64,000 bases of DNA. It comes from a virus. The notes under the pieces were generated by a model. The model searched no databases. It was not told where the DNA came from and worked only from the letters and a program-made list of their open reading frames with translations. Made by a program: the position numbers and the translations under genes. This document shows positions 20,686-45,965 of the stretch, piece after piece. Positions within the stretch are counted from its first letter, which is position 1. Each line of letters starts with the position of its first letter. The DNA lies in the IMG/VR virus record IMGVR_UViG_3300025617_000909, positions 1 to 64,000 of that record. One strand, given 5' to 3'.

Positions 20686-20910
20686 ATGTTTAATTGGTTA
20701 AAAACACTTTTTGGTTTTGATACACCGGATACCCCGGTTATTGCGCAACCTACAGCAGAGCAACCCAAAGAGGAAGCAACGCCTAAGGCACAGGCTAAAA
20801 AGCCTGCGGCAAAGCGTACAACTACTAAAAAGAAAACAACAACACAGGCTAAGAAGCCAACGTCAACTGCTCCAAAGAAGCGTGGACGTCCTGCGAAGAA
20901 AGCCGAGTAA
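20686..20910 (+). CDS. Lys/Ala/Thr-rich AT-hook, histone-like protein
   Basis: 74 residues. A short hydrophobic head (MFNWLKTLFGF) is followed by a tail of Lys/Ala/Pro/Thr repeats similar to histone H1 tails and a final KKRGRPAKK, the AT-hook core (RGRP). It would bind the minor groove of A/T-rich DNA. AGGAGG lies 7 nt before the ATG. The last 62 bases overlap the 3' end of uvsE on the other strand. Role in DNA packing or host takeover is inferred. Confidence 0.75.
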   Translation: MFNWLKTLFGFDTPDTPVIAQPTAEQPKEEATPKAQAKKPAAKRTTTKKKTTTQAKKPTSTAPKKRGRPAKKAE

Positions 20911-21922
20911 GGTACTCTTTGTATAAACCTATGCTGGCTAGGTTTTTCGCTTTAGATTCAACCATAATGTCAGCACTTCCCAAGAAACTAAGAGCCCATT
21001 CGTTAACTGCTTCATTCCACATGAAGTCTGAATGAGCTCTTAGTTTCGCTTTTTTGTATCCTTGTCCAAGTAGCGTTTGGAAATCGGGTCGAACATTTCG
21101 TGGTAAGTGTCCGAGTAACTCTTCGCGACTGACGGAATAATGAATAACAGGACGTACACCACGCCAACTGTCAATAATACGTCTAAAACGGTCATCATTT
21201 GCATTTATATATTCTCCTCCTGAGTGGCACCAATGGTGATGAATATCTAGCACCAAAGCGAGATCGTTACATAATTCGAGACTGGCGTCGATGCCCCAGG
21301 CGTTTTCGTCGTTCTCGATAGTAATACAGTTTCTTGCCTCCGGTGAGAGACGCCTAAGTGCGTCTTTGATACCGGCTGGACCTTTGCGGCCTGAGATGTG
21401 TACGTTACACTTGAAGTCCTGGAACTGTCTACCGTACCCCATCCACCTGATGCAATTAACATGATATTCAAACTCCTCTATACTTCTATTTACTATATCT
21501 GGGCTATCACTAGCAAGCACAGTAAACTGCCCAGGATGCATAGACAACCTAACATCAAGCGACCGGGCAAGATCGCCGACCCTTGCGAAATGGCTTTCAC
21601 AATATCGGACCACATCAGGACGTTGCCAAAAATAGCACCAGTCAGGCTGAGTGTATACAGGAAGGACATCACTGCCAAGTCTAACCATTCGTAATTCATG
21701 TGGTAAACTCCCAACATATTCTATAAGGTTGTAGTACGACTGAATATTGTGTACCATGATGTCCCACAGTCGTTGTTCAGCAACATCACGTGTCTGCCTA
21801 TTGAGCCAAGCAACCGTTGTGCTCTTTGTATTCAACGGTCGTTGAATTTCTTCAAGCAGTTTCTTTTTTTGTGTTTGATCTGGGTACATGTACTTACATG
21901 CGAATCCTATACGTTTAGCCAT
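20849..21922 (-). CDS. uvsE: UV-damage endonuclease (UvdE/UvsE)
   Basis: 357 residues. The N-terminal RIGFACKYMYP resembles the RIGYVS/A-type first strand of the UvdE TIM barrel. Expected metal-site motifs follow (SMHPGQFTVLASD at about 147-159, ITIENDENAW at about 210, LVLDIHHHWCH at about 235-245, HYSVSREE at about 275). The enzyme nicks 5' to UV photoproducts and abasic sites. It may protect virion DNA in sunlit water. Its 5' end overlaps the downstream HAD gene stop by 8 bases. Confidence 0.85.
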   Translation of the reverse strand: MAKRIGFACKYMYPDQTQKKKLLEEIQRPLNTKSTTVAWLNRQTRDVAEQRLWDIMVHNIQSYYNLIEYVGSLPHELRMVRLGSDVLPVYTQPDWCYFWQRPDVVRYCESHFARVGDLARSLDVRLSMHPGQFTVLASDSPDIVNRSIEEFEYHVNCIRWMGYGRQFQDFKCNVHISGRKGPAGIKDALRRLSPEARNCITIENDENAWGIDASLELCNDLALVLDIHHHWCHSGGEYINANDDRFRRIIDSWRGVRPVIHYSVSREELLGHLPRNVRPDFQTLLGQGYKKAKLRAHSDFMWNEAVNEWALSFLGSADIMVESKAKNLASIGLYKEYLTRLSSQDVHASLEQLTLAS

Positions 21923-33638: not shown

Positions 33639-33672
33639 GATTTAGGGCTCCTAAAAAATCTAACTATGAATA

Positions 33673-33701
33673 ATTGTACGATATTTTTATATATATGTCA
33701 A
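33673..33701 (-). promoter_or_regulatory. Sigma70 early promoter
   Basis: TTGACA (33696-33701), 17 nt, TACAAT (33673-33678). Transcribes the 431-residue protein with a leader of about 30 nt. Confidence 0.75.
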
Positions 33702-33709
33702 GAGCTAAC

Positions 33710-33717
33710 TATAAATA
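33710..33717 (+). promoter_or_regulatory. Consensus late -10 box, leaderless start
   Basis: TATAAATA followed by TTTTT and the ATG at 33723, with no ribosome-binding site. Confidence 0.7.
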
Positions 33718-33722
33718 TTTTT

Positions 33723-35288
33723 ATGAATAAATCACTCAAAATAGTAATCGTCGGCGGAGGATCCGCAGGATGGTTAACTGCCGGATGGTTAAGCGTCTTT
33801 CAAAAAGATTGTGAAATCGAAGTAATAGAATCTGATACAATATCCACAATAGGTGTAGGTGAAAGTGTTACACCTCACGTTGATTTATTTTTATCAGACA
33901 TGGGAATTGATAGACATCATTGGATGAGAACCACAAATAGTGTTTATAAATTAGCAAATAAATTTACTAATTGGGTTAGTAATTCGGGAGAAACTGAATA
34001 TTTTAGTTTTAATTACACGTTACCTGCTGACAGTTTATATCAAGATATTACAAAATATTTTAATAAGACTCAATTATCTGAAAGTATTGATTTAAGAAAT
34101 ACAGATATTTTGTATTCTCTAATTAAAAATAATAAATTAGAAAAATTTGACAAGTATTTTAATCCGCAGTACTGTTATATGGAAAACAATACTTGTCATA
34201 TAAAAGATCAAATTAATTGTTTAAATCAATTAGGTTCAATTAGTCAACATATCAACGCCGAACAATTAGGAACATATATCAAAGATCACATTGCTATTCC
34301 TAACGGTGTAAAGTCTACCATAGCAACAATTAAAAAAGTAATAAGAGTTCCAGGAAACATACAATTAGTTAATCATTTAGTAACTGAAAAGGATGAGTTG
34401 ATTGCTGGAGATCTTTTTATAGATTGTTCAGGATTCAAAAGAGTTTTAATGAACTCTTATCCTTTAGAAGTACACAAATACAAAGATCATCCTATCAACA
34501 GTAGTATAGTTGCGCAAACTGAATATCAAGATCCTACCAACGAATTAGTTAACTATACACAAAGTATTGCTAGAGAGAATGGGTGGCAGTTTAAAATTGG
34601 ACTTTACAACAGAATGGGCAACGGCTATTGTTTCAGCGATGCTCACGAAACTCAAGCAGATAAAAAATTTAGTTCGTTTGTAACTAATTTAAAAAACGAA
34701 CCTAGACTGATAAAATGGACTCCAGAAAGACTTGTAGCACCTGGAAAAGAAAATGTAGCCGCTATTGGTTTGAGTTCTGGATTTGTAGAACCCTTAGAAG
34801 CCAATGCTCTTTATACAATTATTACTGGTATTAAATTGCTTGATACAACTATTAACAAATACAAAATTACCAGCAGGTTTGATTGGTCTGATTACAATAA
34901 AAAACTTACACATACTATAGATGATATTGCTGATTTTCTAATAGTTCATTATACTCTTAGTCAAAGACAAGATACTGAATTTTGGAAAGATATGCGAGAG
35001 ATTGGCAAGACCGACAATCACGAACAATTGATTAAAGACAAGTATTATGATATACGAAACACAATGGGTTATGCGAGTCATAACCATACTATGTTTCCTG
35101 ACTATATGTGGATACAATTAGCAACTCATTATAACATAGACATGGATATTCAAGTTGATAATGAGTTGCTAGAGCTAGGACTACTAGAATTTAAACACAA
35201 TTATAAAAAGCATTCACTAATTAGTAAAAGTACTTTAAATAATTATGAATGGATTAACAAAGTAATTTTCGGATCTTCCGGTTCGTGA
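33723..35288 (+). CDS. Tryptophan-halogenase-like flavoprotein
   Basis: 521 residues from the ATG at 33723. Visible motifs: FAD-binding GGGSAGWLTA (residues 11-20), IGVGES, the catalytic-lysine region VYKLANKFTNW (Lys76, equivalent to Lys79 of PrnA/RebH), and SSGFVEPLEANALY with the conserved Glu. The usual WxWxIP motif is replaced by GWQFKIGLYNRMG. Flavin-dependent halogenases oxidise halide with FADH2 to chlorinate or brominate an indole; substrate here is unknown. A flavin reductase was not seen. Confidence 0.85.
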   Translation: MNKSLKIVIVGGGSAGWLTAGWLSVFQKDCEIEVIESDTISTIGVGESVTPHVDLFLSDMGIDRHHWMRTTNSVYKLANKFTNWVSNSGETEYFSFNYTLPADSLYQDITKYFNKTQLSESIDLRNTDILYSLIKNNKLEKFDKYFNPQYCYMENNTCHIKDQINCLNQLGSISQHINAEQLGTYIKDHIAIPNGVKSTIATIKKVIRVPGNIQLVNHLVTEKDELIAGDLFIDCSGFKRVLMNSYPLEVHKYKDHPINSSIVAQTEYQDPTNELVNYTQSIARENGWQFKIGLYNRMGNGYCFSDAHETQADKKFSSFVTNLKNEPRLIKWTPERLVAPGKENVAAIGLSSGFVEPLEANALYTIITGIKLLDTTINKYKITSRFDWSDYNKKLTHTIDDIADFLIVHYTLSQRQDTEFWKDMREIGKTDNHEQLIKDKYYDIRNTMGYASHNHTMFPDYMWIQLATHYNIDMDIQVDNELLELGLLEFKHNYKKHSLISKSTLNNYEWINKVIFGSSGS

Positions 35289-40193: not shown

Positions 40194-40270
40194 TGGCCTG
40201 CCCTAGAGGATTCGAACCTCTGACCCACAGCTTAGAAGGCTGTTGCTCTATCCGGCTGAGCTAAGGGCAG
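40194..40270 (-). tRNA. tRNA-Arg(TCT)
   Basis: Cloverleaf with acceptor CTGCCCT/AGGGCAG, anticodon arm ACAGC-CTTCTAA-GCTGT (anticodon TCT), T arm AGAGG-TTCGAAT-CCTCT and encoded GCCA. Codes for AGA, which A/T-rich phages use heavily. Confidence 0.95.
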
Positions 40271-44496: not shown

Positions 44497-44569
44497 TGGA
44501 GCGGCATCCCGGATTCGAACCGAGTTCATTTGCTTGGAAGGCAAAGTCCTCTCCCAGGAGAAATGCCGC
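44497..44569 (-). tRNA. tRNA-Gly(TCC)
   Basis: Acceptor GCGGCAT/ATGCCGC, T73 and encoded CCA, anticodon arm TTTGC-CTTCCAA-GCAAA (anticodon TCC), T arm CTCGG-TTCGAAT-CCGGG. The D arm is short (CTC-CTGGGA-GAG), about 4 nt below normal. Confidence 0.9.
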
Positions 44570-44682: not shown

Positions 44683-44774
44683 TGGCGGTGAGACTGGGAT
44701 TCGAACCCAGGGTACCCATTTCTAGGTACGACAAGTTAGCAACCTGCTGCCTTAAGCCACTCGGCCACCTCACC
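44683..44774 (-). tRNA. tRNA-Ser(GCT)
   Basis: Class II tRNA: acceptor GGTGAGG/TCTCACC, anticodon loop TTGCTAA (GCT), long variable arm (GTACC-TAGAAATG-GGTAC), encoded GCCA. Confidence 0.95.
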
Positions 44775-45304: not shown

Positions 45305-45380
45305 TGGTGCCGGCACCAAGAATCGAACTCGGGACCTTTGCATTACAAGTGCACTGCTCTACCTGCTGAGCTATGCCGGC
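45305..45380 (-). tRNA. tRNA-Thr(TGT)
   Basis: Acceptor GCCGGCA/TGCCGGC, anticodon loop CTTGTAA (TGT), T arm CCGAG-TTCGATT-CTTGG, encoded ACCA. Confidence 0.95.
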
Positions 45381-45443: not shown

Positions 45444-45519
45444 TGGTGCGCCCGGTAGGATTCGAACCTACGATCTGCCCATTATGAGTGGGTAGCTTTA
45501 ACCTCTAAGCTACAGGCGC
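45444..45519 (-). tRNA. tRNA with CAT anticodon (Met or Ile2)
   Basis: Acceptor GCGCCTG/CGGGCGC, anticodon loop CTCATAA (CAT), T arm GTAGG-TTCGAAT-CCTAC, encoded ACCA. Elongator Met versus lysidine-modified Ile cannot be decided from sequence alone. Confidence 0.9.
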
Positions 45520-45525
45520 TATGTT

Positions 45526-45602
45526 TGGAGTGGATGATGGGAGTCGAACCCACATGAAACGGATTTGCAATCCGCGGCCTAACCATTCGGCGACACATCC
45601 AC
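45526..45602 (-). tRNA. tRNA-Cys(GCA)
   Basis: Acceptor GTGGATG/CATCCAC, anticodon arm GCGGA-TTGCAAA-TCCGT (GCA), T73 and encoded CCA. Notable because the nearby enzymes and candidate peptide are cysteine-rich. Confidence 0.92.
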
Positions 45603-45607
45603 ATAAC

Positions 45608-45685
45608 TGGTCGGGGATGTAGGATTCGAACCTACGGCTTTTCCGCCCCAAACGGAACACTCTGACCAGACTGAGCTAATCCCCG
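45608..45685 (-). tRNA. tRNA-Pro(TGG)
   Basis: Acceptor CGGGGAT/ATCCCCG, anticodon arm TTCCG-TTTGGGG-CGGAA (TGG), T arm GTAGG-TTCGAAT-CCTAC, encoded ACCA. Confidence 0.95.
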
Positions 45686-45689
45686 TAAT

Positions 45690-45765
45690 TGGCACCGGTG
45701 GAAGGAATCGAACCTCCGCTGTCGTGGTTTTGGAGACCACCGCTCTACCCCTGAGCTACACCGGC
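45690..45765 (-). tRNA. tRNA-Trp(CCA)
   Basis: Acceptor GCCGGTG/CACCGGT, anticodon arm GTGGT-CTCCAAA-ACCAC (CCA), encoded GCCA. First of the cluster in transcription order. Confidence 0.95.
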
Positions 45766-45789
45766 AAAACTAAATTGTCAAAGAGCAAT

Positions 45790-45819
45790 AAAAAACCCCG
45801 GAGTGTTTAGTTCCGGGGT
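45790..45819 (-). terminator. Intrinsic terminator
   Basis: Minus strand: ACCCCGGA and TCCGGGGT form an 8-bp G/C-rich stem with a 9-nt loop, followed directly by TTTTTT (45790-45795). It ends the short transcript from the promoter at 45937-45965. Confidence 0.85.
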
Positions 45820-45849
45820 CTTTCGTAAAATTTGTAAATAATTACAACA

Positions 45850-45930
45850 TCACGTAGACCCGCAGAAACATCCACACCATCTTGGTGTACTTGGTATTAC
45901 TATAAATGTGTTTGCGTTTCTATTCATCAT
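45850..45930 (-). CDS. Candidate 26-residue Trp/Cys-rich peptide
   Basis: Short ORF whose ATG is 6 nt after TATACT of a near-consensus promoter. The first 14 residues are polar/hydrophobic; the end reads TPRWCGCFCGST with three Cys and one Trp in 7 residues. The transcript would be about 140 nt, terminated at 45790. It may be a modified peptide (RiPP) precursor, a small Zn-binding peptide, or simply part of a small RNA. No homologue can be checked here. Confidence 0.4.
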   Translation of the reverse strand: MMNRNANTFIVIPSTPRWCGCFCGST

Positions 45931-45936
45931 GTTGTT

Positions 45937-45965
45937 AGTATATGTTCGTTGTTATCTATTGTCAA
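45937..45965 (-). promoter_or_regulatory. Strong sigma70 promoter of a short transcript
   Basis: TTGACA (45960-45965), 17 nt, TATACT (45937-45942). The predicted start is 45930. The -35 lies in the last codons of the upstream gene. Confidence 0.8.

Follow-up and report, generated by a model that had tools for sequence, protein, structure and literature searches.

A putative ribosome-mediated attenuator with a multi-codon leader peptide ahead of a phage tRNA array

Introduction

For 50 years there has been debate about the presence of tRNA genes in phages. The DNA analysed here, a stretch of 64,000 nucleotides from a virus record that is itself a 64,346-base fragment (henceforth the window), poses a question at positions 45790-45965: what are a promoter, a very short reading frame rich in Trp and Cys and a terminator doing together? 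A sequence-only reading had described them as an independent mini-unit at the border of a radical SAM island and had found a RiPP-like precursor attractive, with a regulatory RNA as the equal alternative. The elements on which it was built (the TTGACA-17-TATACT promoter, the ATG, the 26 codons and the strong terminator) are all present on the minus strand (Table 1), and the window does encode a Trp halogenase and radical SAM proteins as well as the phage's own tRNA-Trp and tRNA-Cys.

Anatomy of the leader and its tRNA array

The promoter matches the consensus at 11 of 12 positions and is the top promoter-like site in a 3-kb scan; on its 5' side it is adjoined by a 149-codon gene on the minus strand, for whose product (149 aa) a search found no relatives. 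Only 6 nt separate the -10 box from the ATG, and leaders L025, L090, L172 and L164 of other phages have the same spacing. Exactly this distance in five leaders, that of the window included, implies leaderless translation, so that the window ORF probably is leaderless. A simple terminator scan did not list the terminator because of its 9-nt loop, but it was recovered by folding as a stem at 45822-45792 followed by a T run, and an intrinsic terminator thus precedes the first tRNA gene. The whole leader folds into a stable RNA of about 140 nt (-43.7 kcal/mol, z -4.1), in which an early 1:2 pause or protector hairpin can be folded as well.

Table 1. Leader elements and tRNA genes (positions in the window)
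Feature	Position	Strand	Remarks
Promoter, sigma-70-type, TTGACA-17-TATACT	45937..45965	minus	-35 TTGACA 45965-45960, -10 TATACT 45942-45937
Leader ORF, 26 codons, MMNRNANTFIVIPSTPRWCGCFCGST	45850..45930	minus	ATG 45930, end 45850
Sensor codons CCA AGT ACA CCA AGA TGG TGT GGA TGT (P S T P R W C G C)	45868..45894	minus	Each decoded by a phage tRNA
Antiterminator 5' arm GGGTCT	45856..45861	minus	Within the final ORF codons; pairs with AGACCC 45821-45816
Antiterminator hairpin region	45816..45861	minus	Composite hairpin, -16.5 kcal/mol; precluded by a ribosome at the stop codon
Intrinsic terminator	45790..45822	minus	-16.6 kcal/mol; AGACCC, on its 5' side, common to the antiterminator
BoxA-like element GCTCTTTGACAATTTA	45771..45786	minus	Between terminator and first tRNA; same in many other phage arrays
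tRNA-Trp (cca)	45690..45765	minus	First gene of the array; starts 6 nt past the boxA-like element
tRNA-Pro (tgg)	45608..45685	minus	tRNA prediction
tRNA-Cys (gca)	45526..45602	minus	tRNA prediction
tRNA-Met (cat)	45444..45519	minus	tRNA prediction
tRNA-Thr (tgt)	45305..45380	minus	Internal promoter-like site 45434-45406 upstream
tRNA-Ser (gct)	44683..44774	minus	tRNA prediction
tRNA-Gly (tcc)	44497..44569	minus	tRNA prediction
tRNA-Arg (tct)	40194..40270	minus	5.5 kb downstream; its codon AGA present in the leader

Promoter, short ORF and terminator thus form one set, as had been proposed, yet not an independent one: since a boxA-like element and then tRNA-Trp lie directly behind the terminator, the unit belongs to a tRNA array as its 5' leader. 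The array runs Trp-Pro-Cys-Met-Thr, followed by short genes, Ser-Gly and the distant Arg; an Rfam search of the window returned tRNAs only, with no other family and no T-box. A good second promoter-like site (TTGACA-17-TAATAT, minus strand) lies between tRNA-Met and tRNA-Thr, from which tRNA-Thr and the later genes may be transcribed separately. Given this site and the 5.5 kb between the leader and tRNA-Arg, not all eight tRNAs need depend on this leader.

Elsewhere in the window, the tryptophan halogenase homologue (33666-35288, plus strand; phrog_2928, E 2.5e-92) is about 30% identical to cyanophage halogenases, and an endonuclease (20849-21922, minus strand; phrog_8420) is about 47% identical to the putative UV-endonuclease of phage NCTB and to jumbo Erwinia phages. 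The nearest relatives of some window proteins are found in large myoviruses, including cyanophages.

Codon content of the leader ORF

All eight distinct anticodons of the phage tRNAs are represented in the leader ORF (8/8), and the readers of the sensor codons, tRNA-Pro(tgg), Ser(gct), Thr(tgt), Arg(tct), Trp(cca), Cys(gca) and Gly(tcc), make up the full non-Met set of the record. Such a stretch is rare: of the 80,462 stop-free 8-codon stretches in its six frames, the window has only 3 made up entirely of codons that a phage tRNA decodes, and all seven non-Met tRNAs are covered by just two overlapping stretches, both in the leader ORF. Synonymous codon choice fits the array anticodons 7/7, against 3.9 expected. 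The C-terminal part of the peptide is ..P S T P R W C G C F C G S T; the phage's tRNA-Trp and tRNA-Cys account for its Trp and Cys, and the Ser, Thr, Pro, Arg and Gly codons serve the other tRNAs. The ORF probably is a codon-testing strip rather than the source of a peptide product.

The same layout before other phage tRNA arrays

Since no close relatives of the window were found in the collections searched, viral contigs were scanned for the shared layout instead, using two patterns, boxA behind a T run and the start of a tRNA behind the end of a terminator, and a purpose-built detector for a terminator, a competing antiterminator and an ORF 5' of tRNA arrays. The same architecture precedes more than 20 phage tRNA arrays, in many unrelated phages and with unrelated leader sequences; the examples are metagenomic contigs whose hosts are not identified, and arrays at contig ends are possibly incomplete. 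The counterpart ORFs stand before tRNA genes, not before peptide-maturing enzymes, and the peptide follows the local array. LSYLSSSSLYS, for example, precedes a Tyr/Leu/Ser array. In the clear cases MTYFICKFEEYMTWEGSRD (L247) precedes Ile Tyr Phe Glu Lys Lys Met Cys, MKNTSLSYLSSSSLYSDGGFCMIG (L251) Tyr Tyr Leu Leu Leu Leu Ser plus one more Leu 6 kb further, MTLTNNFSNFCSWYDTGRGIV (L252) Phe Asp Trp Cys, and MKTMNLNTINNLNTLTVVNNTLCIRLTCYGGGIVV (L189) Val Leu Ile Leu Arg Asn Cys Thr. One genome of 329.8 kb (IMGVR_UViG_3300028840_008160) contains four arrays with four differing leaders, each having its best codon match to its own array: ..CNSNYFTSSFSNY.. before Phe Phe Asn Ser Cys Asn, ..HVHAAVMVLSSLSWLLEGEGYD.. 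before His Leu Asp Trp Gly Tyr Glu Val Met, ..MDMRQVTCAATTIR.. before Met Thr Ile Ala Asp Arg Val, and ..RRPQPQQPRR.. before Pro Gln Arg. On a contig of 156.7 kb two leaders complement each other: the first contains H K E Q R M W C F Y N V, the second, which starts with GTG, contains A L P S T D G I V, and both match their arrays.

A boxA-like GCTCTTTGACAA is also located immediately 5' of four phage arrays (L015, L022, L019, L014) that have a promoter or an upstream terminator but no leader-peptide attenuator, and boxA preceding phage tRNA genes seems to be common. Some tRNAs in or near attenuator-controlled arrays have the anticodon tta or cta (L245 15386 and 7941, L248 12035, L249 6394 on the minus strand) and are possible suppressors of stop codons.

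In bacterial genomes the same pattern led to tRNAs at 53 of 119 loci and to a single convincing leader (1/53), compared with about 20 leaders in 70 tRNA-bearing viral loci. This one case (L263, 4367-4550) comes from a contig that binning placed in a planctomycete MAG, where an ORF that appears to be leaderless, MTLIHANAAFAKPQPRPGSAM, precedes tRNA Lys-Asn-Pro; the contig may be a phage or may represent cellular use of the same device. The detector scan gave no convincing attenuator in the tRNA-bearing cultured phages RcXuper, phiCbK, Motura, KVP40, S-SCSM1, Weasels2, Phendrix, StAugustine, Stubb and KP13-26, whereas cultured T4 and Mosig were looked at by annotation only. BLAST of the window region and the leaders against INPHARED produced matches to tRNA genes only, except for LR756502.1, an uncultured huge phage of 642 kb, whose DNA at 401158-401227 resembles the L189 leader and was uncalled by the detector. 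The codon pattern for STPRWCG had 11 chance matches in viral contigs, none of them beside tRNAs.

Statistics of the leader-array match

Across 22 leaders the codon match to the own array was 0.561, against 0.415 in shuffled pairings (0 of 200,000 shuffles, z 8.4), and 0.895 of the anticodons were represented, against 0.661 (0 of 200,000, z 7.0). The match depends on position: before the point at which a ribosome would mask the antiterminator, z is 8.6 (9.2 for the last 12 codons), and after it 0.8. Small arrays match their leaders as well as large ones. An amino-acid table of 21 leaders, whose entries are not fully independent, gave an odds ratio of 18 (p 1e-34), and across those four members of one leader family whose arrays are complete, the presence or absence of residues tracks the array with an odds ratio of 32 (p 7e-6). 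Within amino acids, too, codon choice favours the array anticodons (143 vs 120 expected, z 3.3).

As the ORFs of the discovery set had been picked by eye, the scan was rerun with two further patterns under rules that were fixed and automatic. Eight new non-redundant leaders were obtained, one of which (L565) is akin to a previously seen family in its first residues; one of the set, MKKFTLSSPSLYPSQLEGGAL, precedes Pro Leu Tyr Leu Ser. Their self-match was 0.539 vs 0.377, and before the masking point only 8 of 100,000 shuffles did as well (p ~8e-5, z 3.5), with z 1.7 after it. Permutation, positional control and replication rule out chance as the source of the match.

Antiterminator and ribosome position

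In our fold model the ribosome masks the RNA up to 15 nt from the start of the A-site codon. For most leaders the model predicts an antiterminator near 0.9 when the ribosome stalls early and 0 when it has reached the stop codon; in most leaders the antiterminator also forms without any ribosome, so that termination seems to require completed translation. In the window leader the antiterminator stays free for stalls no later than codon W17/C18, and the responsive zone has the Gly codon at its border. The core of the window antiterminator is only 6 bp, equalled by 5 of 100 shuffles, and at equilibrium folding lets the full terminator prevail over it; the switch in the window must therefore be kinetic, as in trp. 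Taken over all leaders, antiterminators are stronger than those of dinucleotide shuffles (combined p 8e-15), although in L050, L100 and G011 the antiterminator was weak or undetectable by fold model and shuffles.

Discussion

We consider it very probable that the window leader controls the phage tRNA array by ribosome-mediated transcription attenuation, with a multi-codon leader peptide that turns on the tRNAs as soon as any one runs short. The polymerase would start at the leader promoter and a ribosome would load on the leaderless ATG, reading a short peptide composed of codons of the array's own tRNAs. With all sensed aminoacyl-tRNAs present, the ribosome would finish the ORF and cover GGGTCT, the terminator would form and no tRNAs would be made; with any of them scarce, an early stall would leave GGGTCT free to pair with AGACCC, the terminator would be blocked and the polymerase would pass boxA into the tRNA genes. 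The leader would thus act as an OR gate over seven to eight tRNAs, restoring supply on demand, and boxA past the terminator could shield the untranslated tRNA precursor from early termination. The anatomy, the codon-array match with its position dependence, the mutually exclusive foldings and the recurrence were computed; from them we infer translation of the leader ORF and the direction of switching in vivo, a stall giving more read-through. The natural trigger presumably is a tRNA-cleaving defence, the decay of host tRNAs or a host poor in those tRNAs.

The RiPP-like precursor, a Trp/Cys-rich peptide matured by the adjoining radical SAM enzymes, owes its appeal to these nearby genes and to a peptide ending in WCGCFCGST. 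We now regard it as extremely improbable: the residues track the tRNA array and not a peptide core, the final ORF codons serve the antiterminator, and the counterparts elsewhere (RRPQPQQPRR or LSYLSSSSLYS, for example) stand before tRNA genes and have no peptide sequence in common with it or with one another. The remark that the product could be a regulatory RNA was right in kind, and the stable fold of about 140 nt is in line with it; a non-coding RNA with an accidental ORF, however, is scarcely credible in view of a codon match that depends on frame and position, which also bears out that the reading frame matters.

Two further explanations accept the leader as such. Trp/his-type attenuators sense charging, and the same anatomy would answer to charging as well as to the amount of tRNA, so that the leader might report amino-acid starvation instead of the amount of each tRNA species. 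This is unlikely, since the operon yields tRNAs and not amino acids, starvation is not cured by more tRNA, and codon choice favours the array anticodons beyond amino-acid identity. Alternatively, ORF and terminator could constitutively fix a low read-through, the codon match arising as a side effect where selection favours rapid translation or an even sampling of codons. Large arrays are indeed easily matched and some antiterminators are weak, but small arrays match equally well, the match is limited to codons before the masking point, and the four leaders of one genome differ by array, which makes a constitutive leader very unlikely.

If the attenuator reading is correct, a leader that reads its array's own codons means that the phage monitors the shortage of those very tRNAs. 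The purpose of phage tRNAs would become directly testable by reporter, it could be computed from the leaders which tRNAs a phage expects to lose, and they would offer a natural design for a multi-input tRNA sensor. More broadly, we give about even chances to the idea that large environmental phages carry modular multi-input sensors of tRNA depletion, in which the own leader of each sub-array senses the destruction of its tRNAs, for example by a host anticodon nuclease, and only the missing group is replaced on demand.

Comparison with known systems

In the parts consulted, two publications propose or show that phage tRNAs, replacing depleted host tRNAs, act against defences that deplete tRNAs (PMC10264068, PMC11555353); in these parts the subject is the tRNAs themselves, and the words leader, attenuat-, terminator and promoter are absent from PMC10264068. 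No description of leaders or attenuators of phage tRNA genes was found in the literature searched, which covered a minority of subscription papers and no preprints.

T-box riboswitches likewise let tRNA status control transcription ahead of an intrinsic terminator, but a T-box binds one uncharged tRNA directly in the RNA, whereas the phage leader would be a translated ORF with many codons. BoxA is known from the rRNA leaders of E. coli; in rrn leaders, too, a boxA-like GCTCTTTRACAATTTA is found right before stable-RNA genes, while the phage boxA is placed downstream of the attenuator terminator and ahead of phage tRNAs.

The closest likeness is to the attenuators of amino-acid operons (trpL, hisL, leuL, thrL, ilv type), which also have a short ORF with regulatory codons and overlapping antiterminator and terminator, the position of the ribosome deciding between them. 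In silico, the phage leaders share with the trp and his systems codons in the ORF that are tied to what follows (here the array), a terminator before the first gene and a maskable antiterminator of shared sequence. Attenuation itself is already known, and new here would be leader-peptide attenuation of phage tRNA arrays with many codons tested; we know of no other attenuator that controls tRNA genes via a poly-specific leader peptide. In contrast to the trpL/hisL type, which governs amino-acid biosynthesis and senses runs of one to three amino acids, the phage leaders would govern tRNA genes and sense 2 to about 25 anticodons, and they are phage-borne, often with a leaderless start and with boxA after the terminator.
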